NCBI GenBank assembly: GCA_902522015.1
Contig: CABYTX010000011.1
Coordinates: forward strand, 1-34,356
DNA length: 34,356 bases
Source of the DNA: an uncultured Alphaproteobacteria bacterium
GTDB lineage: Bacteria; Pseudomonadota; Alphaproteobacteria; HIMB59; GCA-002718135
Reading direction: 5' to 3'
Each line of letters begins with the position of its first letter. Position 1 is the first letter of the stretch. Under the pieces are notes generated by a model, which worked only from the letters and a program-made list of their open reading frames with translations, did not search any database and was not told where the DNA came from. The translations under genes and the position numbers were made by a program. Shown here piece by piece: positions 8,154-29,480 of the stretch.

Positions 8154-8825
8154 AAAGTTAAAAAATACATAGCTGAAGATTTAAAATTTTCAAATCAAAC
8201 TATCAAAGAAATGAAGATTAATTCAAAAAAATTTTATTATAAAATTATAGAAAGAAGAAGCATACGTGAATTTTCAAAAGATAAAATCGATATAAATATT
8301 ATAAAAAATGCGATCTTATCTGCAGGATCAGCTCCAAGTGGAGCAAATCTTCAACCTTGGCATTTTGTAATAGTAAAAAATAAAAACGTAAAAAAGAAGA
8401 TTAGAATAGAAGCAGAAAAAGAAGAAGAAAATTTTTATAAGTACAAGGCTCCTAAAGAATGGTTAGAAGCATTAACTCCTTTAGGAACTGATGAAAATAA
8501 AAAATTTATTGAAAATGCACCTTATTTAATAGCTATATTTGAGAAAAAATTTTCAGTTTCAAAAAATAAGAAAATAAAAAATTATTATGTAAAAGAGTCG
8601 GTCGGTATAGCTACTGGTATATTAATTACTTGTTTACATTTTTCTGGCTTAGCAATGTTAACACACACGCCAAGCCCAATGACATTTCTTAATAAAATTT
8701 TGAAAAGACCTAGTAATGAAAAACCATTTGTTTTACTTATTGTTGGACGACCAGATAAAGATGTAAAAGTTCCAAAGTTTGCAAGACAAAAGAAAAAGTT
8801 TGAGGAAATTACTTCAATTTTTTAA
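8148..8825 (+). CDS. Nitroreductase-family flavoprotein
   Basis: FMN-dependent oxidoreductase of the nitroreductase fold, 225 aa. FMN-binding landmarks are IIERRSIREFSKD (about 33-45) and SAPSGANLQPWHFVIVKN. The later segments VGIATGILITCLHFSGLAMLTHTPSPM and KPFVLLIVGRP match the subgroup that contains iodotyrosine-deiodinase-like and BluB-like reductases. The physiological substrate cannot be told. The ORF-track start is kept because this subgroup usually has 30 or more residues before RRS. An alternative ATG at 8211 (MKINSKKF) would give a shorter protein that still contains the domain. The start codon is shared with the opposite 62-aa gene and the stop overlaps the phosphoribosyltransferase stop by 4 bases. 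Confidence 0.88.
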   Translation: MHKVKKYIAEDLKFSNQTIKEMKINSKKFYYKIIERRSIREFSKDKIDINIIKNAILSAGSAPSGANLQPWHFVIVKNKNVKKKIRIEAEKEEENFYKYKAPKEWLEALTPLGTDENKKFIENAPYLIAIFEKKFSVSKNKKIKNYYVKESVGIATGILITCLHFSGLAMLTHTPSPMTFLNKILKRPSNEKPFVLLIVGRPDKDVKVPKFARQKKKFEEITSIF

Positions 8826-9325
8826 CCAAGTTCTTCTGGTTTCATAGTTTCATAAACCTCATAAGGCATATGTATCCAAGGAGAATCTTCTAAATAATCA
8901 ACATAATAATTTGGTTTAAACGAAGATACTGACTTATAAAACAAAACTCCAGTTCTTATTGGTTCATCTATATAAAAACCATAAGTATGATTTAACCAAT
9001 CAATACTTTTTTTAAGAGTAATTCCAGAGTCTGCCAAATCATCTACTATTAAAACTTTTGATCCAATGTTAGGGCTTGTTTTTGCTAAATCTCTTGAAAA
9101 TGTGATTGCACCTCTTTTATTTTTTACTCCCTCACCTTTATATGATTCAACAGAAAGAATTGCTAAAGGAACATCGAATATTCTTGCCATTACATCCCCT
9201 ACTCTCATACCTCCTTTTGCGATACATACAACCTGATTAAATTGCCATCCATCCTTATGAATTTGTTTTGCTAAATCTTCTGTTTTACTTCTATATTCGT
9301 CCCAACTAATGTGTAAATCAGACAT
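8822..9325 (-). CDS. Purine-type phosphoribosyltransferase (Gpt/Hpt-like)
   Basis: Type I phosphoribosyltransferase of 167 aa. The PRPP-binding motif is VLIVDDLADSGITL, with the two acidic residues and the phosphate loop. The pyrophosphate loop region CIAKGGMRVGDVMARIF and a C-terminal YYVDYLEDSPWIHMPYE resemble bacterial xanthine/guanine/hypoxanthine phosphoribosyltransferases (COG2236-like). Expected reaction: purine base plus PRPP to the nucleotide. It follows the BMP-binding-protein gene on the same strand after 67 bases containing a short GC-richer hairpin, and is preceded by an AAGGAAG ribosome-binding sequence. Context suggests salvage of imported bases, in competition with the degradation enzymes upstream. 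The exact base preference is not readable. Confidence 0.87.
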   Translation of the reverse strand: MSDLHISWDEYRSKTEDLAKQIHKDGWQFNQVVCIAKGGMRVGDVMARIFDVPLAILSVESYKGEGVKNKRGAITFSRDLAKTSPNIGSKVLIVDDLADSGITLKKSIDWLNHTYGFYIDEPIRTGVLFYKSVSSFKPNYYVDYLEDSPWIHMPYEVYETMKPEELG

Positions 9326-9351
9326 AAATCTTCCTTTTAAATTAAGAATTA

Positions 9352-9379
9352 AACCTCTCCCTTTAAAAGAGAGAGGGTT
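9352..9379 (-). other. Hairpin between the BMP-protein and phosphoribosyltransferase genes
   Basis: AACCTCTC pairs with GAGAGGGTT around a TTTAAAA centre, with one bulged base. It is one of the few G/C-containing hairpins in an intergenic space here. On the transcribed strand it is not followed by a run of U, so it is unlikely to be a complete intrinsic terminator. It could instead protect the 3' end of a binding-protein message, which is usually the most abundant one in an ABC operon. This role is inference. Confidence 0.4.
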
Positions 9380-9392
9380 ATAAGAATTTTAA

Positions 9393-10460
9393 TTATTGTG
9401 GTACTTCGCCGTCAATACCTTGAACATAAAAGTTCATTCCAAGTAACATTCCATCAGGTGCTACTTCACCTTCAGGAACCACAAGCTCACCAGCTTGATT
9501 GTAAATTGGACCCGTGAAAGGATGAATAGTTCCATCTTTAATTCCAACTTCCATATTTACTGCTTCTTGAATTAAACTTGCTGGCATAAGTTTAGTATTA
9601 TATGGTGACATTACAACCATACCTTTATCCATACCATCCCAAGTATCACCAGAAGACCAAGTGCCGTCCACAACAGCTTTTGCTCTTTCAGCATAGTAAG
9701 GGCCCCAAATATCTTCAATTGAAGTTAAATGTGCATCAGGACAAAATTCTTCTTGGTTTGAAGCTTGACCAAATGCATAAACACCAGCTTTTTGAGCAGC
9801 TTGGCAAGGAGCATATGTATCAGTATGCTGAACAATTATGTCAGCTCCTTGATTAATTAATGTATTAGCTGCATCAGCTTCTTTACCTGGGTCGTACCAA
9901 GTAAATACCCAAATAATTTTCATTTTGATATCTGGATTTACTTTTGAAGCCGCTAAATAAAATGCATTAATTCCTCTTACAACTTCAGGAATAGGGAATG
10001 AAGCTATATAACCAATAGTATTAGTTTCAGTCATATGACCGGCAATATGCCCTTCAATCATTCTACCTTCGTAAAATCTAGCTGAATACGTTGCAACGTT
10101 ATCTGCTTGGATATACCCAGTAGCGTGTTCAAATTTTATATCAGGAAAATCCTTAGCTACTTCATGTGTCTGATCCATATAGTTGAAAGACGTTGTAAAG
10201 ATTAAATCATGTCCTGAGTCTGCTAGTTTTCGGATTGCTCTCACTGCATCTGCGTTTTCAGGAATATTTTCAAGATAAGTGGTAGTAATAGAGTCACCAA
10301 GTTGGCTCTCCATATATTTTCTACCTACATCATGCATATATGTCCAACCATGATCACCTGGAGGACCTATGTATATAAATCCAACTTTTTTAGGGTCTGC
10401 ATATGCTGAACCAAATGCAAATACCAAAAAAGTAGATAAAAAAGTTATTATTCTAATCAT
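9393..10460 (-). CDS. BMP-family ABC transporter substrate-binding protein (purine nucleoside/base)
   Basis: Periplasmic solute-binding component of 355 aa. The N-terminus MIRIITFLSTFLVFAFGSAYA is a classic Sec signal peptide with an AYA cleavage site and no lipobox Cys, unlike many Gram-positive members. The mature protein begins DPKKVGFIYIGPPGDHGWTYMHDVGRKY, which is the PnrA/Med/Bmp domain. Further landmarks are TTSFNYMDQTHEVAKDFPDIKFEHATGY and IVQHTDTYAPCQAAQKAG. BMP proteins with NupOPQ-type partners carry purine nucleosides. Here every neighbour is a purine gene, so a purine nucleoside or base is the expected ligand. It is separated from the permease by 106 bases and has its own strong ribosome-binding site. 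Confidence 0.93.
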   Translation of the reverse strand: MIRIITFLSTFLVFAFGSAYADPKKVGFIYIGPPGDHGWTYMHDVGRKYMESQLGDSITTTYLENIPENADAVRAIRKLADSGHDLIFTTSFNYMDQTHEVAKDFPDIKFEHATGYIQADNVATYSARFYEGRMIEGHIAGHMTETNTIGYIASFPIPEVVRGINAFYLAASKVNPDIKMKIIWVFTWYDPGKEADAANTLINQGADIIVQHTDTYAPCQAAQKAGVYAFGQASNQEEFCPDAHLTSIEDIWGPYYAERAKAVVDGTWSSGDTWDGMDKGMVVMSPYNTKLMPASLIQEAVNMEVGIKDGTIHPFTGPIYNQAGELVVPEGEVAPDGMLLGMNFYVQGIDGEVPQ

Positions 10461-10465
10461 TTTAA

Positions 10466-10473
10466 CCTCACCT
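10466..10473 (-). promoter_or_regulatory. Strong Shine-Dalgarno for the BMP binding-protein gene
   Basis: On the minus strand AGGTGAGG lies 5 bases before the ATG. Most other starts in the window have weak or no Shine-Dalgarno because they overlap the previous gene. A strong site here fits the need for excess binding protein over membrane subunits. Confidence 0.7.
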
Positions 10474-10487
10474 GCTAATATAACGAT

Positions 10488-10501
10488 TACTCAGCTATAT
10501 A
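10488..10501. promoter_or_regulatory. Candidate second operator copy upstream of the BMP gene
   Basis: On the minus strand TATATAGCTGAGTA matches 11 of 14 positions of the perfect palindrome TATTTAGCTAAATA found in the puuE-hiuH divergent region, including the central TAGCT. It lies in the only sizeable intergenic gap of the leftward arm, about 28 bases before the BMP start. High A/T content makes chance similarity a real possibility. Confidence 0.25.
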
Positions 10502-10566
10502 CTTAATATAAACAAAAGGGTTTGATCAATAATTCTATATGTTTATAGAAAAAAAAAAGTGGATAT

Positions 10567-11436
10567 TTATCTGCCTTTATAAAAAGGAATAGTTAATGAA
10601 GCTGGTGCGCTTAGTTTTATTCTTAATTTATTACTAGAAATTAACACTAATACTATAATAGTTGCAACATATGGCGCCATGCTAAAAAATTGACCAGGGA
10701 ATCTTAAACCTAAAGCCTGAAGATTCATTTGAAGAATAGTTACGCCTCCAAATATATAAGCTCCAATAAGTACTCTTTCTGGTTTCCAAGTTGCAAATAC
10801 AACTAAAGCTAATGCTATCCATCCTCGTCCAGCTGTCATACCCTCTTGCCACATTGGAGCATAACAAATTGAAATATATGATCCTGCAAGAGCACACATA
10901 GAACCTCCAAATATAATTGATAAAAATCTAATTTTAATAACGCTATATCCTAATGCATGTGCAGAATTATGAGATTCCCCTACTGCTCTTAAAATCAAAC
11001 CAGCTTTAGTTTTGTAAAAAAAATAACTAACCAAAAAAACAATTAAGAAAGAAAATATAACAAAAAACCATGGTGACAGACCATCAATTGGTGTTCCAAT
11101 ATATTGTTTGCCAAGCATCGAACTCAGCCCTATTCCAAATATAGTTAATGCTAATCCTGTAGCAATTTGATTTGACATTAAAAATAGAACTAGAAAAGCA
11201 AATAAACCAGACATGATAATTCCTGATAATATAGATACAAAAAAAGCTAAAAAATAACTTCCAGTAATTACTAAGATAATAAAAGCTGACACTGCTCCTA
11301 CCAACATCATTCCTTCTACACCTAAATTTAATACTCCAGATTTTTCTGTAACTAACTCACCTATACCAGCAAAAACTAGAGGTGTTGTTGCAATTAAAAC
11401 AATTTGTAATATTCCAAGTATTAAATCTAAATTCAT
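10567..11436 (-). CDS. ABC transporter permease (NupQ-like)
   Basis: Inner-membrane permease of 289 aa with roughly eight or more hydrophobic helices, belonging to the branched-chain/ribose permease family (BPD_transp_2). The stretch ATTPLVFAGIGELVTEKSGVLNLGVEGMMLVGA is characteristic of the second permease of BMP-type nucleoside importers such as NupQ. LRAVGESHNSAHALGYSVIKIRFLSIIFGG is the cytoplasmic coupling segment that contacts the ATPase. The start overlaps the preceding permease stop by 4 bases (ATGA-type coupling). The paired permease, ATPase and binding protein are all present, so the importer is complete. Confidence 0.92.
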   Translation of the reverse strand: MNLDLILGILQIVLIATTPLVFAGIGELVTEKSGVLNLGVEGMMLVGAVSAFIILVITGSYFLAFFVSILSGIIMSGLFAFLVLFLMSNQIATGLALTIFGIGLSSMLGKQYIGTPIDGLSPWFFVIFSFLIVFLVSYFFYKTKAGLILRAVGESHNSAHALGYSVIKIRFLSIIFGGSMCALAGSYISICYAPMWQEGMTAGRGWIALALVVFATWKPERVLIGAYIFGGVTILQMNLQALGLRFPGQFFSMAPYVATIIVLVLISSNKLRIKLSAPASLTIPFYKGR

Positions 11437-12515
11437 AATAATTTTTTGTAAGTTAATTTATAGTTAATTAGTAATTCCGCACCTAATAAATAAAATAAAA
11501 CCAAACCCTGAAATATAAAACCTACCGCTGAAGGTATTTGTAAAAATAATTGTGCATCTTCAGCACCAAGATAAGTAAGAGCGATAACTAAAGAAGCAAA
11601 AATAATACCAATTGGGTGAAGTCTACCTAAAAAAGCAACAATAATTGCAGTAAATCCATAATTTGGGGAAATATCTCTATATAGTAATCCAATTGGGCCA
11701 GATACTTCAGCTAAACCTGCAATACCTGCAAAAGCGCCACAAATTGCAAAAGCAAAAAAAACTAAAGTTGTTTGATTAAAACCAGCATATCTAGCAGCTT
11801 TGGGGCTGTAACCGGATACTTTTAATTGAAAGCCAAAAATAGTTTTTGAAAATATAAACCAAGATACAAAAATTAAAAATAGCGTTATAATTAGTCCAAA
11901 GTGCACCCTCAAACCATCAAATAATAGAGGCATTCTTCCAGATTCACTAAATGGTCTTGATTTAGGAAAACTATAACCAAATGGATCTTTCCAAGGTCCC
12001 ACTACTAAATAATCTAAAATAAATAAAGCAACATAAACTAACATTAAACTTGTTAAAATTTCATTTGTATTAAATTTTGTTTTTAAAATAGCAGGAATTA
12101 AACCCCACAATGCTCCTCCGATTGCTCCTGCAAAAATCATTAATGGCAACAACCAGAAAGCATTTGTATCATGAAATAATATTCCAATACCTCCACCAAA
12201 AATTGCTCCCATTGTAAGTTGTCCTTCAGCTCCAATATTATAAATATTATTCTTAAAACAATATGAGAGACCAATTGCAATTAAGGCTAAAGGAGTTGCT
12301 TTTACAAACAATTCAGAAATACCGTAGGTTGAAGAAATAGGTGAAATAAAAAATGTATACAATGCATAAACTGGATCAAAACCAAGAAGAACAAAAATAA
12401 TTGAACCTGTAATTAAAGTTAAAACTATTGATATTATAGGAACAAAAAAATTCATTAAACCCGAACTTTGTGAGCGAGAAACTATAGAGGGAAATAAACT
12501 ATTCATTTTTTCCAC
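11433..12515 (-). CDS. ABC transporter permease (NupP-like)
   Basis: Inner-membrane permease of 360 aa, the longer first permease of a BMP-type nucleoside importer. Landmarks are PLALIAIGLSYCFKNNIYNIGAEGQLTMGAIFGG (about 90-125), the coupling helix LKVSGYSPKAARYAGFN, and the conserved GFTAIIVAFLGRLHPIGIIFASL. The start at 12515 overlaps the ATPase 3' end by 17 bases. A second in-frame Met lies a few residues inside (MEKMNSLFP), at 12506, which would leave an 8-base overlap. The choice does not change the product. Confidence 0.92.
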   Translation of the reverse strand: MEKMNSLFPSIVSRSQSSGLMNFFVPIISIVLTLITGSIIFVLLGFDPVYALYTFFISPISSTYGISELFVKATPLALIAIGLSYCFKNNIYNIGAEGQLTMGAIFGGGIGILFHDTNAFWLLPLMIFAGAIGGALWGLIPAILKTKFNTNEILTSLMLVYVALFILDYLVVGPWKDPFGYSFPKSRPFSESGRMPLLFDGLRVHFGLIITLFLIFVSWFIFSKTIFGFQLKVSGYSPKAARYAGFNQTTLVFFAFAICGAFAGIAGLAEVSGPIGLLYRDISPNYGFTAIIVAFLGRLHPIGIIFASLVIALTYLGAEDAQLFLQIPSAVGFIFQGLVLFYLLGAELLINYKLTYKKLL

Positions 12516-14004
12516 CCATCAATAATCCTAATTTTTCTATTTCTATTTCACTAGTTTTAAAAGGTTTGGATAAATTACCATCATAAATAACAGATATTTT
12601 ATGAGTAATTTCAATCAATTCATCTAAATCTTGAGAAATAACAATTATAGACGTTCCATTTTGAGATAATTCTATCAAAGACTCTCTTATAGAATGCTCA
12701 GCGCCAGCATCTATCCCCCAAGTTGGATGTGAAATAATTAATATTTTTGGCTTAGATGATATTTCTCTACCAATGACATATTTTTGTAAATTTCCTCCGG
12801 ACAAGCTTGATGCTTTAGCATCATTACCAGGAGTAATAACTTTAAATTCATTAATTACATTATTCGCAAAATCATCAACGTTATTTTTCAATATTATGCC
12901 ATTTCTAATAAAATTATTTTTTGGAAATTGACTCAAAAGAATATTTTCAGACAAACTTAACTCAGGTACTGCACTATGACCCAATCTATTCTCCGGAACA
13001 AAAGAAATAGATAAATCTCTTCTTTTTTGTGGCCCATACTTTTCAATTTTTTTATTATCAAAAGTAATTGATCCAGATTTAATATTTATATTTTCTCCTG
13101 TTAAAATATCCATTAATTCTGATTGTCCATTACCAGCAACTCCAGCAATACCATAAATTTCACCCACTCTAACTTGAAAAGAAATATTTTTAAGATCTGT
13201 TAAAAATGGATCATTAAAGTCACATGAAATATTTTTTACTTCAAAGTTAACTTCGTCTTTTATATGTCCATAATTAGTTTTTAAGTCATCTAATTTTTGT
13301 CCTAGCATTTTTGTTGCAAGTGTTTTTGCAGTTTGATTTGCAGTACTTGAAGTATCTATAATTTCACCACTTCTCATTATAGTAACTGTATCACATATTG
13401 ATATTACTTCTTCGAGTTTATGAGTGATATATAATATTGTACGACCTTCTTTGACGAGTGCATTTAATGTTACAAATAAACTTTCAACTTCTTGTGGTGT
13501 TAAGACTGAAGTTGGTTCATCCATAATAAGTATCTGAGGGTCTTGTAATAAAATTCTTACAATTTCTACACGTTGCTTTTCTCCAGCTGATAAAGCAGTA
13601 ATTGGAGCATCTAAATCTAAGGGAAGATTATATCTTGCGCTTATATTTTCTAGCTTATTTTCTAAATCTGAATAAGACATCTTTTCATCAATTCCTAAAA
13701 TTAAATTTTCTTTTACTGATAAAGAATCAAATAAAGAAAAATGCTGAAATACCATTCCTATTCCTTGTTTCCTTGCTTCTGCTGGGGAATTAACTTTAAA
13801 TTCCTTATTATTTAATTTAATATTTCCTTGATCTGGTTCTAAGAGACCATATAGAATTTTTACCAACGTAGATTTCCCTGCTCCATTTTCTCCTAAAATT
13901 GCATGAACTGCATTTTTTTTAATATCAAAAGTAACCTTTTTATTTGCAATTACTCTTGGAAAAGATTTTGTAATATTTTCTATTTTTAATATTGTATCAC
14001 TCAT
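12499..14004 (-). CDS. ABC transporter ATPase with two nucleotide-binding domains (NupO-like)
   Basis: Duplicated ATPase of 501 aa for the BMP-type importer. The first domain has Walker A GENGAGKST (38-46), signature LSAGEKQRVE and Walker B ILIMDEPTS. The second domain keeps the signature LSGGNLQKYVIGRE, but its Walker A is replaced by GVAGNGQSE and the Walker B region reads ILIISHPTWGIDAG. Loss of the second P-loop lysine is usual in sugar and nucleoside importers of this class, where only one site is fully catalytic. The start overlaps allA by 8 bases, which ties transport to the ureide-degradation genes in one message. Confidence 0.95.
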   Translation of the reverse strand: MSDTILKIENITKSFPRVIANKKVTFDIKKNAVHAILGENGAGKSTLVKILYGLLEPDQGNIKLNNKEFKVNSPAEARKQGIGMVFQHFSLFDSLSVKENLILGIDEKMSYSDLENKLENISARYNLPLDLDAPITALSAGEKQRVEIVRILLQDPQILIMDEPTSVLTPQEVESLFVTLNALVKEGRTILYITHKLEEVISICDTVTIMRSGEIIDTSSTANQTAKTLATKMLGQKLDDLKTNYGHIKDEVNFEVKNISCDFNDPFLTDLKNISFQVRVGEIYGIAGVAGNGQSELMDILTGENINIKSGSITFDNKKIEKYGPQKRRDLSISFVPENRLGHSAVPELSLSENILLSQFPKNNFIRNGIILKNNVDDFANNVINEFKVITPGNDAKASSLSGGNLQKYVIGREISSKPKILIISHPTWGIDAGAEHSIRESLIELSQNGTSIIVISQDLDELIEITHKISVIYDGNLSKPFKTSEIEIEKLGLLMGGKNE

Positions 14005-14491
14005 AATTTAATTCAAAAATTTCTGATTGTTCAAAATTATAAATCTCAATATTATTATCCGCATCTTTTTTATCAATGGTAATATATTTTTCATTCTCAA
14101 GAGATATTAGAGGAAAATGCCATACTTTGGGATTAAAATTTATACCATCACCACCGCTTACTTTGAATATTTCAATTAAATCAATTTTAGGTTTGTTACC
14201 TATTGGAGCAACTAAAACTAAAAAACCTGTAGCATTAAACGGAAGAAATACTTGAGAACTAAAGGGGTGATTTTCTAACATGTTAATTTTTAATGGAAAG
14301 TTTCTTTTCTTTGCCTGAAAAATATTTAATCTAGATCTTTTGTCATCACCAATTATTTGAATATTTGCTAAATCAAAAAAACTATCGGTTGTATCTTTAT
14401 TAATACTTTCATAATTTTTATTAGATGTTGTAATTAAATCACCATAATTTTTGAAATTCTCTTTACTGATATTCTGTATTTTATAGTTCAC
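13997..14491 (-). CDS. allA: Ureidoglycolate lyase
   Basis: Cupin-fold enzyme of 164 aa that splits (S)-ureidoglycolate into glyoxylate and urea, the last step of the pathway here. Landmarks are FPLKINMLENHPFSSQVFLPFNATGFLVLVAPIG (family pattern E-x-H-P-x-S-Q-x-F-x-P) and GDGINFNPKVWHFPLISLE, which matches the conserved GVxxxxxxWHxPL motif. The length is normal for AllA. It starts inside the allantoicase stop (4-base overlap). The alternative, an ammonia-releasing ureidoglycolate hydrolase, is a different family. Sequence divergence is high, but position directly after allantoicase makes the call firm. Confidence 0.9.
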   Translation of the reverse strand: MNYKIQNISKENFKNYGDLITTSNKNYESINKDTTDSFFDLANIQIIGDDKRSRLNIFQAKKRNFPLKINMLENHPFSSQVFLPFNATGFLVLVAPIGNKPKIDLIEIFKVSGGDGINFNPKVWHFPLISLENEKYITIDKKDADNNIEIYNFEQSEIFELNYE

Positions 14492-15465
14492 AAAAACTTT
14501 CCAATTGCCCTGATCCGTGAAATACCACCGTCAGGATAAATATTTAACTTCAAATAATTTATTTTTTTAATCTGTTTAGTTGAATTAATTTTTAATGATG
14601 AATTAGGTTTAAGATTTTTATTTTTTATCAAAAATTTCCAATTTTTGCTTTCATGTATTAATTTGCTTATATTTATATTTTTTATTGAATAAAGACCTTG
14701 TACTGAGCAATGAGACGGATAATTACCTTTAAAATAATGAGTTTCAATATTAAACTTTTCAATTAAACCAGGTTTGCCAAGTTTAATTATAACCCAGTCA
14801 TATCCTGATCCTCTTCTTCTTTTAGTTTCCCAACCATTGCCCATATTTTTAGATTTAAATGGAAGTAGTAAATTTTCTGCCCTTCCAAAATGTTCATCAC
14901 TACATGCCACAATTTTTGAACCATTAAGGATGCTAAGTAAATCAAATTTTTTATTTGGAAATTTTAATTTTGATACATCTAAATTTCCTAATAATTTTAA
15001 TCTTGCAACTCCTCCATCTGGATAGATGTTCAATCTTATGAAATTAAAAACTTTATTATTCTGTTGAGTTTTAAAACCATGAAGATAATTTGGATTAAGT
15101 TTCCTTTTTGATAAAATATTTACCCAATTAAATTTATTTTTTTCAAAATAACAAGCATCAATGCTTGCGTATTCAGGTTGATTGCCATTAAAATAGCTTG
15201 TATCTATTTCAGCATAATTAATTTTACCAGGAAGGCCTAATTTAATAGTGACATAATCATTTCCTTCAATTCTTTTTCTTCTTGTTTCCCATCCATCCAT
15301 CCATTTCCCATTTTTATCATATACTCCTTCTTTAAAAATTGGCTGTTCCTCTTTAAGCAATCTGGATGCTGATCCAAAAAACTGATCAGAAAAACTATGA
15401 ATTTTTGTACCTAAAACCTTACTACATAAGTTTATATAATTTTTTTGAATGTATTTATTATTCAT
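14488..15465 (-). CDS. alc: Allantoicase
   Basis: Hydrolyses allantoate to (S)-ureidoglycolate and urea. The protein of 325 aa consists of two clearly related halves. SFSDQFFGSASRLL with DGWETRRKR and VTIKLGLPGKI in the first is matched by ACSDEHFGRAENLL with NGWETKRRR and VIIKLGKPGLI in the second. Each half ends with RLNIYPDGGVARL or KLNIYPDGGISRI. This internal duplication is the hallmark of the allantoicase family, and the length is normal. The ATG overlaps the uraD stop by 8 bases and the stop overlaps allA by 4. Because it is an allantoicase and not an allantoate amidohydrolase (AllC/HyuC), nitrogen leaves as urea and not ammonia. Confidence 0.94.
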   Translation of the reverse strand: MNNKYIQKNYINLCSKVLGTKIHSFSDQFFGSASRLLKEEQPIFKEGVYDKNGKWMDGWETRRKRIEGNDYVTIKLGLPGKINYAEIDTSYFNGNQPEYASIDACYFEKNKFNWVNILSKRKLNPNYLHGFKTQQNNKVFNFIRLNIYPDGGVARLKLLGNLDVSKLKFPNKKFDLLSILNGSKIVACSDEHFGRAENLLLPFKSKNMGNGWETKRRRGSGYDWVIIKLGKPGLIEKFNIETHYFKGNYPSHCSVQGLYSIKNINISKLIHESKNWKFLIKNKNLKPNSSLKINSTKQIKKINYLKLNIYPDGGISRIRAIGKFL

Positions 15466-15967
15466 TAATTAATTCTGTTAATCTTAATTTTGCAATTTCT
15501 TTTACTTGTAAAATTGAAGTTTTTATTTCTAAGTTTAAATCATTATTCTCTAATCTACTTTTAAATTCTGTTATAATTTCATTTTTATTTTTATTTCTAA
15601 CTGCAAAAATAAATGGAATATTAAATTTATTTTTAAATCTTGAATTTAAATCTTTAAATAAGTTAAATTCTTGTTCTGAACAATCTTTTAAACCAGATCG
15701 ACTTTGTTCTTCATCAGATAATTCAGACAAACCTTTATTTATTTTTATTTTATCGGCTAGATCAGGATGTTTTTTAATTATATTTATTTTAGTTTCTTCA
15801 TCTAAATTATCAAACAACTCTAAAAATATTAATATCATTTCTTTTTTATTTTTAAATGGTCGCTTTTTATCAGCATATTCTGTTATAAATTTAGATTCTT
15901 CATAAATATTTTTAAAAGAATCAATAAATTTTTCAGAGTTATAATTATTAATATCTTCAATTTTCAT
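15458..15967 (-). CDS. uraD: OHCU decarboxylase (2-oxo-4-hydroxy-4-carboxy-5-ureidoimidazoline decarboxylase)
   Basis: Decarboxylates OHCU stereospecifically to (S)-allantoin, third step of urate breakdown. From MKIEDINNYN it is 169 aa, the usual length. The catalytic His67 is in KKHPDLADKI, LSDEEQSRSGL is the second family motif (Glu and Gln around 87-88), and FKNKFNIPFIFAVRNKNKNEI is the C-terminal signature (NxxFGFPFIxxVRG-like). The ORF-track start at 16042 adds 25 residues encoded inside puuE that homologues lack, so I use the ATG at 15967, which overlaps puuE by 11 bases. Another Met at 15982 is possible. Confidence 0.92.
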   Translation of the reverse strand: MKIEDINNYNSEKFIDSFKNIYEESKFITEYADKKRPFKNKKEMILIFLELFDNLDEETKINIIKKHPDLADKIKINKGLSELSDEEQSRSGLKDCSEQEFNLFKDLNSRFKNKFNIPFIFAVRNKNKNEIITEFKSRLENNDLNLEIKTSILQVKEIAKLRLTELINE

Positions 15968-16868
15968 CACTAAAATTTTCATACCAATAATTGGCAATTT
16001 CCTCTCTTTTGCATATCCAAATATCATTATAATCAGAAACATAATTCAAAAATTTTACCAAAGACATAAATCTTCCAGGTCTAGCTATTAATCGACAATG
16101 TAAACCTACACTCATCATTTTTGGTTTATTGAACTCGTTTGCTTCTCTGTATAATGTATCAAATGAGTTTTTTAAGTAATTATAAAAATCCTCACCTGTG
16201 TTAAAACCTTGTAAGGTAGAGAATCTCATATCATTATTATCTAGAGTGTATGGAATAATTAGATGTTTTTTATTTTTTACTTTTATCCAATAGGGTAAAT
16301 CATCAGCATAGGAATCACTATCGTAAATAATATTTGTATTTTCTAAAATTATATTTCTTGTATTTGGGCTTGTTCTACCAGTATACCAACCAGAAGGAAA
16401 ATATCCAAAAATATCTTTAATAATGTTGTTACATTTTATAGTATGTTCTTTTTCAACTTCCTCAGTTATATTTTGATAGTCTATCCATCGATAACCATGG
16501 CTAGCTACTTCATAATTTGATTTAATTATTTGTTCACAAACATCAGGATTTTTTTCTAAAGCCATACCAACGCCAAATATTGTTAAAGGTAATTTTCTTT
16601 TTTCAAACTCATTATGTATTCTCCAAAAACCCCTTCTTGAGCCATACTCATATATTGATTCCATATTCATATTTCTGGCACCTATTATTTGCTTTGCATT
16701 AATTATTTCCGATAAAAAAGTTTCTGATCCTTCGTCACCATTTATTATTGAATTTTCAGCACCTTCCTCATAATTTAGAACAAATTGAAGAGCGAGTTTT
16801 GATTTATTAGGCCAATAAAAGTTAGAGTCATTATTTCCGTAGCCTTTATAATTTCTGTCGTCTTTCAT
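15957..16868 (-). CDS. puuE: Allantoinase of the PuuE (polysaccharide-deacetylase-like) type
   Basis: Hydrolyses allantoin to allantoate. The protein of 303 aa has the NodB-like fold and is unrelated to metal-dependent amidohydrolase allantoinases (AllB). Landmarks are LALQFVLNYEEGAENSIINGD, the segment MESIYEYGSRRGFWRI, the histidine motif ASHGYRWIDYQN, and GWYTGRTSPNTR. SVGLHCRLIARPGRF also fits PuuE. The length is normal. It is the first gene of the leftward arm of the purine cluster, with its start 52 bases from the divergent hiuH start. No clear Shine-Dalgarno precedes the ATG. Confidence 0.95.
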   Translation of the reverse strand: MKDDRNYKGYGNNDSNFYWPNKSKLALQFVLNYEEGAENSIINGDEGSETFLSEIINAKQIIGARNMNMESIYEYGSRRGFWRIHNEFEKRKLPLTIFGVGMALEKNPDVCEQIIKSNYEVASHGYRWIDYQNITEEVEKEHTIKCNNIIKDIFGYFPSGWYTGRTSPNTRNIILENTNIIYDSDSYADDLPYWIKVKNKKHLIIPYTLDNNDMRFSTLQGFNTGEDFYNYLKNSFDTLYREANEFNKPKMMSVGLHCRLIARPGRFMSLVKFLNYVSDYNDIWICKREEIANYWYENFSDEN

Positions 16869-16885
16869 AAAAATGCTTGATTTAA

Positions 16886-16899
16886 TATTTAGCTAAATA
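16886..16899. promoter_or_regulatory. 14-bp perfect palindrome in the puuE-hiuH divergent promoter (candidate operator)
   Basis: TATTTAGCTAAATA is its own reverse complement. It lies in the 52-base space from which both arms of the purine cluster must be transcribed, 17 bases from the puuE start and 21 from the hiuH start. A dimeric regulator could control both arms from here. No regulator gene is in the cluster, and the promoter hexamers are not clear enough to call. Confidence 0.45.
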
Positions 16900-16920
16900 C
16901 TGTATAAACGAATAAGTATT

Positions 16921-17274
16921 ATGTCTAAAGGATATTTAACTACTCATGTTTTGGATACCTATAATGGTAAGCCTGGTTCTGGTATAAAAGGGTCACTTTT
17001 CAAAATTGATGGTGAAAATAAAGTTAAAATTTCAAATTTTATTCTCAATGAAGATGGCAGATGTGATGAACCTATATTAAGTAAAGAGAATTTTATACTT
17101 GGAAAATATGAGTTATTATTTCTTTGCGGGAGTTATTTTAAGGAATTTACAAATCTTGATGAACCATTTTTTCTTGATGACGTAATAATTAGATTTGGAA
17201 TTAACAAAGAAGAGCACTACCATGTACCTCTTCTTATTACCCCGTGGAGTTATTCAACATATAGAGGAAGCTAG
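16921..17274 (+). CDS. hiuH: 5-hydroxyisourate hydrolase (transthyretin-like)
   Basis: Hydrolyses 5-hydroxyisourate to OHCU, second step of urate breakdown. It is 117 aa. The N-terminal motif LTTHVLDTYNGKPGSGI carries catalytic His9, GRCDEPIL carries the substrate-binding Arg, and the C-terminus HYHVPLLITPWSYSTYRGS holds the second catalytic His and the diagnostic YRGS tail that separates the enzyme from transthyretin. No signal peptide is present, so it is cytosolic. First gene of the rightward arm. Its final codons and stop (AGAGGAAGCTAG) double as the ribosome-binding region of xdhA. Confidence 0.97.
   Translation: MSKGYLTTHVLDTYNGKPGSGIKGSLFKIDGENKVKISNFILNEDGRCDEPILSKENFILGKYELLFLCGSYFKEFTNLDEPFFLDDVIIRFGINKEEHYHVPLLITPWSYSTYRGS
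17263..17270 (+). promoter_or_regulatory. Ribosome-binding site deciding the GTG start of xdhA
   Basis: AGAGGAAG lies 3 bases before GTG at 17274, which overlaps the hiuH TAG by one base. It is formed by the codons for the conserved RGS tail of HiuH, so it may be partly coincidental. Still, no in-frame ATG occurs until far inside the iron-sulfur domain. Confidence 0.5.
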
Positions 17275-18689
17275 TGTCTAGAGCGCATGTCGATTTTCTT
17301 CTTTATGAAGAAAAAATTTCTATCAAAGATTTAGACACAGATACAACGGTCTTAAATTATCTTCGAAACAACCATGAGTTAACTGGAACAAAAGAAGGTT
17401 GCGCATCTGGTGATTGCGGAGCATGTACTGCAGTTGTAGGAGAATTAAAAGAGAATAAAATTTCTTATAAAAGTATAAATACTTGTATTACTTTTTTGTA
17501 CTCTCTACATGGCAAGCAATTAATAACGGTTGAACATATAAAAAAAAGTAAACTTCATCCTGTTCAACAATCAATGATTGATAGTGATGGATCTCAATGT
17601 GGTTTTTGTACACCTGGTATTATTATGTCAATGTATAATATGTACGAAAACAAAATAAAACCAACAGAAGAAAATATAGATAAATTTCTTTCTGGAAATT
17701 TATGTAGATGTACAGGTTATCTTCCAATCAAAAACGCAATTAAGAATATGTATAACTATAAAAGTAATAAATTTTCAAAAAGTAAAGTTATTAGATTATT
17801 AAAATCAATTAAGAAAACTGATATTGTTATTAAAAAAAATGATTCTAAGTTTTTCATCCATTATAATTTAAATTCTCTAATCAAAGACTATCAAAAGGTT
17901 AGTAATGGACATTTACTAGTCGGGGGTACAGATCTCGCTCTTGAAGTAACAAAAAAAAGAAATGATTTAAAAAATATTTTTTATTTAGGATTAAATAAAG
18001 ATTTAAATTATATTAAAAATAAAAACAATAATTTACACATTGGATCCGCTACCCCCATAAATGATATTTTACCAATTTTAGAAAATATTTATCCAACATT
18101 TGCTAAAATGTTTGAAAGATACGGATCTGAGCAAATAAGAAATACTGCATCTCTTGGAGGTAACATTGGAAGTGCATCTCCAATAGGTGATAGTTTACCT
18201 GTGTTAATTGCACTCAATAGTAAAATTTTAATTCAAGGAAAAGTTAAAAAAACTTTATTATTGGATAATTATTTTCTCAGCTATCGAAAAACTAAATTAA
18301 AACCTAATGAAATAATTAAAGAAATTATAATACCCATTTATAAAAAAAATATTCTTAAATGTTATAAAATTTCAAAAAGAATAGATGATGACATAAGTTC
18401 TGTTTTCATGGCTATAAATGCTAGAATTGAAAAAAATATTATTAAAGAAATAAAAATTGTTTGTGGAGGTTTGGCAGAAACTCCAAAAATAGCTGAAAAA
18501 GTACAAAAATTTTTATTGAATAAAATATTTAATGAAGAAAATATTAATGAAGCAAAGAAAATTATTAAAAAAGAATTTGATCCAATAGATGATATGAGAG
18601 CGTCAAAAAATTATAGAACTAAAATTAGTCAAAACCTTTTAGAGAGGTTTTTAAATGAAAATAATAAAATTAAATCAACGTTATATTAA
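17274..18689 (+). CDS. xdhA: Xanthine dehydrogenase, iron-sulfur and FAD subunit
   Basis: Small subunit of the XdhAB enzyme that oxidises hypoxanthine and xanthine to urate. It is 471 aa and starts with GTG. The N-terminal ferredoxin-like [2Fe-2S] domain has C43, C48, C51 and C71 (CASGDCGAC...C). The second [2Fe-2S] domain has C109, C112, C144 and C146 (CGFC...CRC). The FAD domain follows, with LLVGGTDLALEV (about 214-225) and NTASLGGNIGSASPIGDSLP (about 290-309), then a CO-dehydrogenase flavoprotein C-terminal domain. All eight cluster ligands are present, so the electron path to FAD is intact. The stop overlaps the xdhB ATG by one base (TAATG). Confidence 0.96.
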   Translation: MSRAHVDFLLYEEKISIKDLDTDTTVLNYLRNNHELTGTKEGCASGDCGACTAVVGELKENKISYKSINTCITFLYSLHGKQLITVEHIKKSKLHPVQQSMIDSDGSQCGFCTPGIIMSMYNMYENKIKPTEENIDKFLSGNLCRCTGYLPIKNAIKNMYNYKSNKFSKSKVIRLLKSIKKTDIVIKKNDSKFFIHYNLNSLIKDYQKVSNGHLLVGGTDLALEVTKKRNDLKNIFYLGLNKDLNYIKNKNNNLHIGSATPINDILPILENIYPTFAKMFERYGSEQIRNTASLGGNIGSASPIGDSLPVLIALNSKILIQGKVKKTLLLDNYFLSYRKTKLKPNEIIKEIIIPIYKKNILKCYKISKRIDDDISSVFMAINARIEKNIIKEIKIVCGGLAETPKIAEKVQKFLLNKIFNEENINEAKKIIKKEFDPIDDMRASKNYRTKISQNLLERFLNENNKIKSTLY

Positions 18690-20962
18690 TGGATAAAATA
18701 TTTACAAAAAATATTGAACATGAAAGTGCAGTAAAACATGTTACTGGAAAAGCAATTTATACTGATGATATATCAGAGCCTAAAAATTTACTTCACGCAG
18801 TAATTGGATACAGTAATTGCAGTAAAGGAGTAATAAATAAAATTGATTATAAAGATGTTTTATCTTCAGAAGGTGTAGTAGACATTATTACTGAAAAAGA
18901 CATTGAAGGTATAAATGATGTTGGGCCAATATTTAAGGGAGATAAAATATTTACTTCAAAAAATATAGAATATTATGGACAACCAATTTTTGCAGTTATA
19001 GCAAAGACCAATAATTTAGCAAAAAAAGCTGCATTAAAAGTAAAAATAGACTTAAAAATATCCAAACCGATCGTTTCAATTGAAGAAGCATTAAAGAAAA
19101 AATCATTTGTTTTAAAACCGAAGAATCTAACTAGAGGAAATATAAAAGATGGGTTTAAAAAATCTGACAACATTCTAAAAGGTAAATTGTATTCAGGTGG
19201 TCAAGATCATTTTTATTTAGAAGGTCAAATTGCAATGACTATTCCACAAGAAGATAATAATTTTTTAGTTTATTCTTCAACACAACATCCATCAGAAACG
19301 CAGCAAATTATCAGTAAAGTTCTAAAACAAAATTACAATAGTATCCATGTGATAGTAAGAAGAATTGGTGGTGGTTTTGGAGGAAAAGAAACACAATCTT
19401 TTTTGTTTGCAGCCATTACAAGCATTGCAGCAAAAAAGTTATCTAAACCAGTAAAGTTAAGAGTCGATAGAGATGATGATATGATCATGACTGGAAAAAG
19501 ACATGATTTTTTATTTGATTATGAAGTAGGTTTTAATAATAGTGGTGAAATACTTGCTCTAAAAGTAATGATGGCATCGAGATGCGGTATCTCTCCAGAT
19601 TTATCAGGAGCTATAAATGATAGAGCCATATATCATATAGATAATGCCTACTTCTTACCAAATATAGAAATTAATTCGTATAGATGTAAAACAAATACTG
19701 TTTCTAATACAGCTTTTCGTGGATTTGGCGGGCCTCAAGGAATGTTTTGTATTGAAAATATAATTGAAAACATTGCTCAAAAATTAAATCGAGAAGCAAC
19801 TGAAATAAGAAAAATTAATTTTTATAAAGATAAAATTAAAAATACTACTCATTATGGGATGAGAATTACTGACAATGTGATTGAAGATATTTTTAATAAA
19901 CTAATTAAGAAATCTAATTACAAAAAAAGAAAAGCAGAAATTAATAATTTTAATAAAAAAAATAAAGTTCTAAAAAAAGGAATAGCAATAACACCTGTAA
20001 AGTTTGGAATATCATTTACAACTACTCATTTAAACCAAGGTGGTGCCTTAGTTCATATCTACACTGATGGATCCATTCATTTAAATCATGGAGGAATTGA
20101 AATGGGTCAAGGATTAATGACGAAACTTGCTTTAGTGGCTTCAAATGAATTTGGCCTTAATTACGAAAATATAAAAATCTCTTCAACAGATACAGAAAAA
20201 GTGCCCAACACATCAGCGAGTGCAGCATCAGCTACAACTGATATAAATGGGGCAGCAATTGTTAATGCTATAAATAATATCAAATCAGGCCTAAATGAAT
20301 TTATATATGATTATTTTAAAACAAATAGCAAAATAAAATATGAAAATAATTTTGTTTATTTTGACAAAAGAAAAATATCTTTTAAAGAATTGATAAATAC
20401 TGCTTACTTAAATAGAATTCCATTGTCATCTTCAGGTTTCTATAAAACTGACAAAATTAATGTAAATACAAAAACACTTCAAGGAAGGCCATTTTTATAT
20501 TTTACTTATGGAGCAGCGGTAACAGAAGTAATCATTGATAAATTAACGGGTGAAAATAAAATTCTTCAAGTAGATATAATTCATGATGTTGGCAATTCTA
20601 TTAATAAGAGAATAGATAAGGGTCAGATTGAGGGTGGTTATATTCAAGGATTAGGTTGGCTCACAACCGAAGAAGTATCTTGGAAATTAAATGGAGAGCT
20701 AACAACTCATAGTCCTTCTACTTACAAAATACCTACTGCCGGTGAAACACCATTAAATTTTAATGTCGAAATATATGATCGTGGTTTTAATAAAGAAAAG
20801 GTTATAAATCGCTCTAAAGCTGTTGGAGAGCCACCATTTATGCTAGCAATTTCAAGTTTTATTGCATTAAAGGACGCAGTATATAATGCCAATAAAGGAA
20901 AAAATTCTGAAAATTTAATTGCACCTGCTACTGCTGAAAATATATTAAAAAGTTTGCATTAA
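18689..20962 (+). CDS. xdhB: Xanthine dehydrogenase, molybdopterin subunit
   Basis: Catalytic large subunit of 757 aa. Landmarks of the molybdenum hydroxylases are GQDHFYLE (171-178, substrate-binding Glu178), IGGGFGGKETQ (from 226), FRGFGGPQG with Arg344, NHGGIEMGQG, and KAVGEPPF with Glu714. The last of these corresponds to the base-catalytic Glu of bacterial xanthine dehydrogenases. The Glu and Arg purine-site pair favours xanthine over aldehyde or CO substrates. A molybdopterin cofactor must be made elsewhere, because no moa, moe or mob gene is in the window. One base separates it from xdhC. Confidence 0.96.
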   Translation: MDKIFTKNIEHESAVKHVTGKAIYTDDISEPKNLLHAVIGYSNCSKGVINKIDYKDVLSSEGVVDIITEKDIEGINDVGPIFKGDKIFTSKNIEYYGQPIFAVIAKTNNLAKKAALKVKIDLKISKPIVSIEEALKKKSFVLKPKNLTRGNIKDGFKKSDNILKGKLYSGGQDHFYLEGQIAMTIPQEDNNFLVYSSTQHPSETQQIISKVLKQNYNSIHVIVRRIGGGFGGKETQSFLFAAITSIAAKKLSKPVKLRVDRDDDMIMTGKRHDFLFDYEVGFNNSGEILALKVMMASRCGISPDLSGAINDRAIYHIDNAYFLPNIEINSYRCKTNTVSNTAFRGFGGPQGMFCIENIIENIAQKLNREATEIRKINFYKDKIKNTTHYGMRITDNVIEDIFNKLIKKSNYKKRKAEINNFNKKNKVLKKGIAITPVKFGISFTTTHLNQGGALVHIYTDGSIHLNHGGIEMGQGLMTKLALVASNEFGLNYENIKISSTDTEKVPNTSASAASATTDINGAAIVNAINNIKSGLNEFIYDYFKTNSKIKYENNFVYFDKRKISFKELINTAYLNRIPLSSSGFYKTDKINVNTKTLQGRPFLYFTYGAAVTEVIIDKLTGENKILQVDIIHDVGNSINKRIDKGQIEGGYIQGLGWLTTEEVSWKLNGELTTHSPSTYKIPTAGETPLNFNVEIYDRGFNKEKVINRSKAVGEPPFMLAISSFIALKDAVYNANKGKNSENLIAPATAENILKSLH

Positions 20963-20963
20963 A

Positions 20964-21794
20964 ATGTATCTCAAAAAGTTAAGTAAAAATATAAATTTTA
21001 ATAGTAAAATAGTTAAAGCTAAAATTATTGAAGTTAAAGGATCATCGCCCAATAGTTTAGATGACATTATATTAATCTCAACTGATACTATCTTTGGAAC
21101 TATCGGTGGCGGAAACTTAGAATATTTAGTTATCGATGAAGCGAGAAAATTAATAGATAGTAATATAGCAAAAAAAGTAATGAATATTCCACTTGGACCA
21201 GGAATTGGACAATGTTGTGGTGGATATGTACAAGTTAAATTAAGCTTACATAATAATTCCAAAGATGCAATAAAAGATGAATATATTTTTAATAATGTAA
21301 AACCTAACTTATATATCTTTGGATCAGGACATATTGGTCAAGCGTTAATTTCTAAATTAGAAAATATTAATTTTAATACTTTTATAATTGATTCAAGAGA
21401 AGATTATTTAAAAATGACAAATATCAAAGATATAAATTATTTACTTTCAAAAAAACCTTGGGAAATTGTATCAAAACTAGAAGATAACTCTTATTTTATA
21501 GTATTAACTCACAGTCATGATTATGACTTAAAAATATTAAATGAAATTTTGAAAAAAAATAATACTTTTGTTGGTTTAATTGGATCTCTTACAAAGAAAA
21601 AAAGGTTTTATAAAAGATTGATTGATAATGGTCACAATAAATCAATAGTTGATAAAATTGAGTGTCCAATTGGAATTGATATTGGTAATTCAAAAGATCC
21701 GAATGAAATAGCTTTCTCAATAATTACACGAATAATATCAATAAAAAATAGCTTGAAGCATTTATCAAATAATAAAATTAAAAAAGTTATATGA
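20964..21794 (+). CDS. xdhC: Xanthine dehydrogenase accessory protein XdhC
   Basis: Molybdenum-cofactor-binding chaperone that helps insert sulfurated cofactor into XdhB. The protein of 276 aa has an N-terminal XdhC/CoxI domain with VKGSSPN, FGTIGGGNLEYLVIDEA and GPGIGQCCGG. A C-terminal Rossmann-like domain contains NLYIFGSGHIGQAL, FIVLTHSHDYDLKIL and GLIGSLTKKKRF. The usual SSPR arginine is Asn here, a divergence to note but not a loss of the fold. It sits directly behind xdhAB as in many proteobacteria and overlaps guaD by 4 bases. Confidence 0.94.
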   Translation: MYLKKLSKNINFNSKIVKAKIIEVKGSSPNSLDDIILISTDTIFGTIGGGNLEYLVIDEARKLIDSNIAKKVMNIPLGPGIGQCCGGYVQVKLSLHNNSKDAIKDEYIFNNVKPNLYIFGSGHIGQALISKLENINFNTFIIDSREDYLKMTNIKDINYLLSKKPWEIVSKLEDNSYFIVLTHSHDYDLKILNEILKKNNTFVGLIGSLTKKKRFYKRLIDNGHNKSIVDKIECPIGIDIGNSKDPNEIAFSIITRIISIKNSLKHLSNNKIKKVI

Positions 21795-22258
21795 CAAACA
21801 TAGATTTTATGAAAAGAGCTATTTTACTATCAATTGATAATGTCAAAAATAATGGAGGTCCTTTTGGATGTGTTATTGTAAAAGATAATGAAATTATTGC
21901 AGAAGGAGTAAATAGAGTAACATTTAATAATGATCCTACTGCTCACGCTGAAATTGTTGCTATTAGAAATGCGTGTCAAAAATTAAATACTTTTAACTTA
22001 GAAGGTTGTGAATTGTATTCCAGTTGCGAACCATGTCCTATGTGCTTGAGTGCGATATATTGGTCACATATAGACAAAGTATATTATGGTAACTCTAGAG
22101 AAGATGCTGCAAAAATTAAATTTGATGACAAGTTTATTTATGATGAACTGGCACTTGAAATGAAAGAGAGAAAAATCCCTATTAGTCAATTATCACGTGA
22201 TGAAGCAATAAAAGCATTTAAAATTTGGGAAAAAGAAGAAAATAAAATAAGGTATTAA
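21791..22258 (+). CDS. guaD: Guanine deaminase (cytidine-deaminase fold)
   Basis: Zinc hydrolase converting guanine to xanthine and ammonia. It is 155 aa and very similar in length and motif order to Bacillus subtilis GuaD: NNGGPFGCVIVKDNEIIAEG, NDPTAHAEIVAIRNAC with zinc ligand His52 and catalytic Glu54, SCEPCPMCLSAIYW with zinc ligands Cys82 and Cys85, and FDDKFIYDEL near the C-terminus. The tRNA adenosine deaminase TadA shares the core, but FDD-x-FIY and the purine operon context support guanine. It starts within the xdhC stop and ends one base before puuD. Confidence 0.93.
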   Translation: MTNIDFMKRAILLSIDNVKNNGGPFGCVIVKDNEIIAEGVNRVTFNNDPTAHAEIVAIRNACQKLNTFNLEGCELYSSCEPCPMCLSAIYWSHIDKVYYGNSREDAAKIKFDDKFIYDELALEMKERKIPISQLSRDEAIKAFKIWEKEENKIRY

Positions 22259-22259
22259 T

Positions 22260-23702
22260 ATGGAATTTTTTCTTAAAATTGTTGCACCAGTTCAATCTTA
22301 TGACTTCCAAACCTTTTTTCATAATTTACTTTTGTCACTACCAGCATCAGCATTATTAGGATTATTATTATTTTTTATCCTTGGGGCATTTTCAGGTTTA
22401 AAATCTAAAGAACAAAGGCTCTATATTGTAATTGCAACCACAATAGTTATAGCTTTTACCGCAGCTTTTTATAATTTAGGAGTTCCAACAGAAACTTTAT
22501 TTGCGGTATATTCTGAGTGGCTACATTTAATTGTTAGATGGGTTCATATAATTGTTGGTGTAGCATGGATTGGAACATCATTTTATTTTAATTGGCTAGA
22601 TAGTAGACTGGAAAGAGATGATCCAGATTTTAAACACCTTGATGGTTATTTGTGGTCTGTTCATTCAGGTGGGTTTTATAGAATTGAAAAATTAAAAGGA
22701 CCTCCTAAAAAACTTCCAAAAGTTCTTCATTGGTTTAAATGGGAGGCGTATGCAACTTGGATAAGTGGTTTTGTGCTACTTATTTTAGTTTATTACTTAA
22801 ATGCAAGCTCTATGATGTTGGGAGCAAGCGGTATTATATTAACACCCTTTCAAGCAATATTAATATCTATATTCTTACTTATAGGATCTTGGCTTCTATA
22901 TGATTATCTTTGTAAAAATGTTTTAAAAGATAATGAACAAACTTTGATTGCAACTGGTGTTTTATTATTTATATTATTAAGTTATTTTTTGACTCAAATT
23001 TATGGATCAAGAGCTGCATACATACATGTTGGAGCAATTATTGGCACCATTATGGCGGCTAATGTTTTTAGAGTAATTATTCCCGCACAAAGAAATCTTG
23101 TTTCATCAGCTGAAAACAAACAAAAGCCAAATTTAAATCTTTCATTAGAAGCAAAAAACAGATCAATACATAATAATTATTTTACACTACCTGTTTTATT
23201 TATCATGATTAGCTCACATTTTTCTTTTACGTATGGGGCTGTAAATAATTGGTTAATTTTAGCTGTTATATCGATAGCTGGCATTTTAACTCGCCATTAC
23301 TTTAATTTAAGAAATAAAAAACAATATAAATTTTGGATTTTACCATCAGCTGGTTTAATCATGTTTTTTTTAATGACTTTAAGTAGTCTTTCAATATTTG
23401 AAAAAAAAGATGCAAATGCATCTCTTTCTTTAGAATTAGTCAGTTTCAATGAAGTACAAAATATAATTAAATACAGATGTGGAACATGTCATGCCAAATA
23501 CCCAACTTTTGAAGGTATTGAAGCGGCACCAAAAGGAGTTGTATATGACACGGCGCAAGATATTGTAAATAATATAAAATTAATCAAAGCTCAGGCTATT
23601 GATGCTGAGATTATGCCTCCGAATAATCTTACTGGTATTACAAAAAATGAAAGAGAGATATTAAAAGTTTGGATTGAGCAAGGTGCAAATATCAATAATT
23701 AA
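22260..23702 (+). CDS. puuD: Membrane-bound urate hydroxylase PuuD with C-terminal cytochrome c
   Basis: Oxidises urate to 5-hydroxyisourate and passes electrons to a c-type haem, so no hydrogen peroxide is made, unlike soluble uricase. It is 480 aa. The N-terminal urate-oxidase membrane domain has about eight helices and includes EWLHLIVRWVHIIVGVAWIGTSFYFNWLDSRL and WSVHSGGFYRIEKL. The C-terminal cytochrome domain has RCGTCH (Cys407, Cys410, His411) and a likely axial Met452 in IMPPNN. The haem domain should face the periplasm. It is last in the rightward arm and completes the step between XdhAB and HiuH. It overlaps the convergent alkA-like gene by 11 bases. Confidence 0.95.
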   Translation: MEFFLKIVAPVQSYDFQTFFHNLLLSLPASALLGLLLFFILGAFSGLKSKEQRLYIVIATTIVIAFTAAFYNLGVPTETLFAVYSEWLHLIVRWVHIIVGVAWIGTSFYFNWLDSRLERDDPDFKHLDGYLWSVHSGGFYRIEKLKGPPKKLPKVLHWFKWEAYATWISGFVLLILVYYLNASSMMLGASGIILTPFQAILISIFLLIGSWLLYDYLCKNVLKDNEQTLIATGVLLFILLSYFLTQIYGSRAAYIHVGAIIGTIMAANVFRVIIPAQRNLVSSAENKQKPNLNLSLEAKNRSIHNNYFTLPVLFIMISSHFSFTYGAVNNWLILAVISIAGILTRHYFNLRNKKQYKFWILPSAGLIMFFLMTLSSLSIFEKKDANASLSLELVSFNEVQNIIKYRCGTCHAKYPTFEGIEAAPKGVVYDTAQDIVNNIKLIKAQAIDAEIMPPNNLTGITKNEREILKVWIEQGANINN

Positions 23703-27149: not shown

Positions 27150-27162
27150 TTTTGAAAGCTAT

Positions 27163-28811: not shown

Positions 28812-28852
28812 TATATTATTGTATAAATTTTTATTTTAATTATTATACCTAT

Positions 28853-28984
28853 ATGGATTACAATAAAGATAATATATCCAAAGATAAGGCACAAACATGG
28901 AAAACTTTTAATAAATTAACAATTTATACAATCATATTTGTTTTTATTATTTTAATAATTATTTTTTCTTTATTTAATTATTAA
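28853..28984 (+). CDS. aa3-type cytochrome c oxidase subunit IV-like microprotein, 43 aa
   Basis: Not in the ORF track because of its size. It reads [27 protein letters not shown] and continues as a single hydrophobic helix to FSLFNY-stop. The pattern of a short polar N-terminus, KxxTWxxFxKL, and one transmembrane helix to the end matches the alphaproteobacterial subunit IV family (COX4_pro_2-like) of about 40-50 aa. It would sit in the inner membrane beside an aa3 oxidase encoded elsewhere. It is divergent from the DUF2066 gene and overlaps the convergent ndk stop by 11 bases, filling the space exactly. Confidence 0.7.
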
Positions 28985-29393: not shown

Positions 29394-29424
29394 AATAATC
29401 CTTTATATTAATTTACAATATCAT

Positions 29425-29480
29425 TTAATTTAGTAATTTGATTTTGTCTATATTTTGATAAAATCAAATTACTAAATTAA
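29425..29480. repeat. Perfect 21-bp inverted repeat between ndk and lptF
   Basis: The arms TTAATTTAGTAATTTGATTTT (29425-29445) and its exact reverse complement (29460-29480) flank a 14-base spacer. It lies between divergent genes, so it cannot be a terminator for either. It would form a long stem in the 5' leader of whichever transcript starts upstream of it. I found no second copy in the window. Possible roles are a leader structure, an operator region or the remnant of a small inverted-repeat element. Confidence 0.8.

Follow-up and report, generated by a model that had tools for sequence, protein, structure and literature searches.

The 34,356-nucleotide stretch of DNA analysed here (the window: contig C11 of a 1.03 Mb assembly that is 66% complete) very probably carries, to judge from its sequence, a locus for purine uptake and degradation that belongs to the AEGEAN-169 genus AG-337-I02 and has been inherited vertically within its family. 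This reading draws on gene content, residues, synteny, prevalence and a derivative that keeps only the importer, all of them observed. AG-337-I02 is the genus name for AEGEAN-169, order HIMB59, alias SAR11 clade V (PMC8692485, PMC12965618), and the organism would belong there by homology; near-identical loci occur in single-cell genomes, AG-337-I02 among them. Clusters of this type are known from SAR11 and other Proteobacteria; what is new is the lineage, the near-core status, the importer-only allele and an N-terminal extension of PuuD. No account of the cluster was found in the open-access AEGEAN-169/HIMB59 literature searched: two papers leave purines out of their main text, and a third has only a highly expressed BMP transporter annotated for purine nucleosides; descriptions elsewhere are possible.

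The purine block spans 8822-23702, that is, 14,881 bases of which ∼227 are non-coding (Table 1). A preliminary description had placed the named genes in two divergent arms with little intergenic space, and all of them were found in position, the arms lying 52 bp apart. The minus arm has the order puuE-uraD-alc-allA-ATPase-permease-permease-BMP-PRT (PRT, phosphoribosyltransferase), and the plus arm hiuH-xdhA-xdhB-xdhC-guaD-puuD. The intergenic gaps measure 67, 106, 52, 1, and 1 bp, and all remaining junctions overlap. Promoter-like matches in the spacer between the arms do not exceed chance expectation in number, and an Rfam search of the window returned no riboswitch or other RNA. Every block gene was identified from Pfam and NCBIfam profiles: XdhA, XdhB, XdhC, HiuH, UraD, PuuE, and Alc passed NCBIfam cut-offs, while PuuD, AllA, GuaD, BMP, the permeases, the ATPase, and the PRT passed those of Pfam only.

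Table 1. Features of the purine block, in window positions.
Feature	Positions	Strand	Evidence
Purine phosphoribosyltransferase (PRT), predicted salvage of imported base	8822..9325	-	PF00156 1.4e-23
BMP-family putative purine-binding protein of ABC importer	9393..10460	-	PF02608
ABC importer permease 2	10567..11436	-	PF02653
ABC importer permease 1	11433..12515	-	PF02653
ABC importer ATPase, double ATPase domain	12499..14004	-	PF00005, two stretches
AllA, ureidoglycolate lyase	13997..14491	-	PF04115 1.4e-36; PDB 2bdr 7e-31
Alc, allantoicase	14488..15465	-	TIGR02961 356 bits, cut-off 277.9
UraD, OHCU decarboxylase	15458..15967	-	TIGR03164 136.9 bits, cut-off 96.25
PuuE, allantoinase	15957..16868	-	TIGR03212 438.4 bits, cut-off 424.6; PuuE 3cl6 1.4e-107
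52-bp intergenic spacer, parts divergent arms	16869..16920	.	gap measurement
HiuH, 5-hydroxyisourate hydrolase	16921..17274	+	TIGR02962 115.9 bits, cut-off 87.45; C-terminal YRGS
XdhA, xanthine dehydrogenase (XDH) Fe-S/FAD subunit	17274..18689	+	TIGR02963 521.4 bits, cut-off 467
XdhB, xanthine dehydrogenase molybdenum subunit	18689..20962	+	TIGR02965 1063 bits, cut-off 849.5
XdhC, XDH maturation factor	20964..21794	+	TIGR02964 226.4 bits, cut-off 161.6
GuaD, guanine deaminase, cytidine-deaminase fold	21791..22258	+	1wkq/1tiy 2e-47, full length
PuuD, membrane cytochrome-c urate oxidase	22260..23702	+	PF06181 4.8e-112

The surroundings of the block were in part named correctly: the nitroreductase is confirmed (PF00881), and "alkA" is real as an HhH-GPD gene (PF00730), its identity as AlkA itself being only putative. 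A small HhH-GPD DNA glycosylase gene at 23692-24309 is convergent with puuD, overlaps it by 11 bp, and adjoins it in all family loci long enough to show this. Farther right, at 27163-28811, a Hda-like gene and the next open reading frame (341 aa, no Pfam match) diverge fast, with identities in close relatives of 51-68% and 43-56%, respectively, compared to 88-95% for AspS. To the right of aspS (27000-34000) the GC content is 15-23%, below the rest of the window.

Enzymes for every step from xanthine to glyoxylate are encoded in the block. Diagnostic residues are intact where they were checked, that is, in XdhB, PuuD, GuaD, and HiuH. XdhB aligns with the XDH of R. capsulatus (1jro, 2.7e-204) at E232, R310, and E730, which we take to be the catalytic residues of the latter, and XdhA has its cluster cysteines. 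GuaD keeps HAE and PCxxC, and the B. subtilis guanine deaminase 1wkq is far closer to it than TadA chains are. UraD matches the zebrafish OHCU decarboxylase 2o70 at 2.4e-19, and its start is likely to be shorter than that of the listed reading frame, which extends to 16042. The complete import-to-glyoxylate route of the preliminary description is thus borne out, with no disabled active site among the residues inspected, and the locus is probably functional as far as its sequence can tell. The adjective "self-contained", also used there, has to be dropped: XDH depends on the molybdenum cofactor, PuuD on the maturation of c-type haem, and the use of urea on urease. The gene moaA lies elsewhere in the window's genome and is found in 87 of the 110 family genomes.

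PuuD (480 aa) combines the DUF989/Urate_ox_N domain with a C-terminal cytochrome c. It keeps CGTCH, followed by Met at +41 and Arg at +54 from the His, as in Agrobacterium fabrum PuuD. The A. fabrum protein has the same architecture, a urate oxidase domain of eight helices followed by a cytochrome c that carries CXXCH and a Met ligand (PMC4562309); unlike it, PuuD of the window's clade has two additional N-terminal helices. These are predicted by a structural model at residues 16-42 and 50-72 (well modelled for ∼21-70) of an extension of ∼78 residues (residues 1-78; 22260-22493), which PuuD lacks in nine genomes of the genus, in the other genera, and among the listed plasmid homologues. A search of the PDB found no sequence relative of PuuD. 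Short (∼204-249 aa) partial Urate_ox_N proteins are encoded elsewhere in some relatives (G002:C27, G008:C21, G009:C47, G001:C9, and others), and they resemble the short DUF989 group described in PMC4562309.

A binding protein, two permeases, and a double ATPase make up a complete BMP-type importer, co-located with the enzymes and conserved in order. The ATPase matches models of B6/sugar-type ABC ATPases below cut-off; the best NCBIfam match of the PRT is xanthine phosphoribosyltransferase, again below cut-off, and its match to purine PRTs in the PDB is 5e-08. The BMP protein matches Brucella 3s99 at 2.5e-127 and AtzT (6pi5) at 1.2e-105. Its pocket, mapped by hand from the printed alignment with AtzT, has W, S, F, E, G, W, H, and D at AtzT positions 45, 97, 98, 165, 169, 194, 218, and 220, and this combination is identical in all 27 sequences compared, distant purine clusters included. 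It is also identical at these eight positions to the pocket of Brucella 3s99, a structure modelled with adenine. AtzT is of the same BMP family and shares S97, F98, E165, and W194 with the window, whereas the other four of the eight positions are changed (Y45W, N169G, N218H, N220D). For AtzT, the Kd is 110 nM with guanine and 2.5 uM with adenine (PMC6834077). The best guess is that the ligand is a purine base; which one is uncertain, because the pocket differs from that of the guanine-binding AtzT.

How would these proteins work together? Substrates, expression, and physiological role are what we infer from the gene set. The ABC importer and its BMP-type protein would take up purine bases, part of which the phosphoribosyltransferase would return to nucleotides. 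GuaD would convert guanine to xanthine; XdhAB, matured by XdhC, would take hypoxanthine and xanthine to urate; and the membrane protein PuuD would turn urate into 5-hydroxyisourate, with electrons passing to its own cytochrome c and not to O2 as peroxide. HiuH, UraD, PuuE, Alc, and AllA would complete the route, which ends in glyoxylate and two molecules of urea. Carbon and reducing power would be gained directly, while most of the nitrogen would be gained only in urease-bearing genomes, urea being released elsewhere. As for ammonia, the yield of one molecule previously given for guanine, hypoxanthine, or xanthine holds for guanine; the other two bases give none.

We can only infer that purines serve as a source of both nitrogen and carbon. 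Nitrogen gain beyond the amino group of guanine requires urease, because all four nitrogens of the ring end up in the two ureas. Urease is found in 65 of 110 family genomes, and its alpha subunit in 63 of the 102 genomes of the genus (62%), including 55 of the 75 that have PuuD. Does the locus, then, mainly supply carbon and energy while the urea goes to neighbours, as has been suggested for most SAR11? This is a tentative alternative that we take seriously while leaning against it. It agrees with the restriction of urease matches to two of the six genera, with three genomes of other genera, each at least 91% complete, that have PuuD and no urease (G103, G108, G109), and with the rarity of urease in SAR11 (∼5%; PMC11698098). 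The frequency of urease in the genus argues in the opposite direction, as does the association of ABC importers with nitrogen harvesting in SAR11 (PMC11698098). Urease was not found in the window's own assembly either, and this negative is uninformative because the 18-kb region that holds urease in G078 has no close match there and is missing from the assembly.

A second possibility is that the importer works mainly for nucleotide salvage and the catabolic genes only clear the excess. This we consider unlikely, even if two observations agree with it. Across genera, the importer proteins are ∼79-83% identical to those of the window versus 56-68% for the catabolic ones, and this greater conservation matches a report that purifying selection in SAR11 is stronger on uptake (PMC12636525). 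Moreover, two genomes, G020 and G092, keep the importer and the PRT without the catabolic genes. Against salvage as the main role, nearly the whole genus retains the catabolic genes in a small genome, and these share one collinear arm with the importer; uptake coupled to degradation remains the preferred reading.

The two importer-only genomes deserve attention of their own. Their order is alkA-(∼95 bp)-ATPase-permease-permease-BMP-PRT-nitroreductase, and none of the ten catabolic genes is left at the site; the interval from alkA to the ATPase is 4402-4495 in G020 (L146, G020:C13) and about 4044-4140 in G092 (L216, G092:C4). Here, salvage is separated from degradation. The ATPases are 67-68% identical to that of the window, and the BMP proteins 94-95%. 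The former value suggested a foreign importer allele, an explanation rejected because both the ATPase and the BMP trees group the two genomes with the window's clade, the ATPase on a long, accelerated branch. The simplest reading is therefore that a common ancestor of the two lost the catabolic genes once. Urease was not found in G092 (88% complete). These genomes provide a natural comparison of salvage and degradation.

As for the history of the block, PuuD occurs in 81 of the 110 family genomes and in all six genera. Within the genus it is present in 75 of 102 genomes, whose mean completeness is 74.1%; therefore, its detection equals completeness. Among the 20 PuuD-negative genomes listed, 19 also lack aspS, which is adjacent and essential. 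Of the 27 negatives in the genus, the state of the locus is settled for all but 13; in the 12 with a readable locus, the cluster is cut by a contig end (ten have a readable left flank carrying a partial cluster, the others being G079 and G089). The preliminary description proposed comparing the flanks on the nitroreductase and alkA sides across relatives, and this comparison places the block at a shared site rather than inserted here and absent there. The ten relatives examined over the whole locus represent five of the six genera, and all have the same neighbours around it. The gene order is also the same save for small differences: G109 is without guaD and nitroreductase, and its right flank differs past eamA. 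The conserved order around puuD extends to the family's named loci. Inverted or rearranged cluster orders in single-cell assemblies (L175, L051, L063) are probably amplification chimeras.

Cluster and flank identities drop in parallel with distance, the GC3 of the block (0.07-0.19) matches that of the flanks (0.10-0.19), and the annotated genes include no integrase, transposase, or tRNA. An XdhB tree, likewise proposed and now built with 64 rows, recovers the family as a single clade with 100% support that falls inside Alphaproteobacteria; no SAR11 XdhB was identified in the class sample. The block is thus vertically inherited within the family. PuuD is absent from all 52 genomes of the rest of the order. 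The more remote origin of the block may lie in an ancient gain at the family base; the tree leaves ancient transfer and loss in the sister family unseparated because of open forks and compositional bias.

Known systems help to place these data. In SAR11 sensu stricto, aerobic purine degradation is encoded within a genomic island (PMC7318151) in about 18-22% of genomes (PMC11698098), and it also occurs in Xanthinipelagibacter and Alipelagibacter (PMC12636525). Compared by gene list and not by gene order, the SAR11 cluster, e.g., that of HIMB083, has the same enzymes according to its authors (deaminase, XDH, PuuD, HiuH, UraD, PuuE, Alc, ureidoglycolate lyase, and PRT; PMC7318151; PMC11698098), and some of the genomes also have an ABC transporter for purines. 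The difference is one of status: in SAR11 the island is accessory, confined to a minority of genomes, and urease is rare, whereas in the window's family the block is near-core at a fixed site and urease is frequent. On plasmids, XdhABC, PuuD, HiuH, and UraD lie near the same BMP/ABC importer in Paroceanicella profunda pD4M1A and, together with PuuE, in Pseudoalteromonas sp. CuT4-3 (NZ_CP142031.1). Both plasmids differ from the window in gene order, in a PuuD without the extension, and in the annotated guaD, whose longer product (∼430-455 aa) gives no match to the window's GuaD of 155 aa; neither Alc nor AllA was found in the plasmid stretches compared.

The suggestion of a recently acquired accessory island, for which the SAR11 precedent and the absence of PuuD from the rest of the order could be cited, is rejected as highly improbable given the shared site, the near-core presence in six of six genera, the matching composition, the lack of mobile genes, and the finding that no catabolism-free site is empty in close relatives, G020 and G092 keeping importer and PRT. 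The block is instead an old trait that is near-core in this lineage.

A broader proposition is that importer, degradation, and urease together form a defining near-core trait of AG-337-I02, from which one subclade became salvage-only by one catabolic loss; on this our judgement is evenly balanced. In the published models, open-ocean cross-feeding of purine and urea revolves around SAR11, a group with patchy degradation and rare urease. If the proposition is true, a second abundant small-genome lineage, near-core for the pathway and usually equipped with urease, would provide these models with a steadier sink from purine to ammonia.
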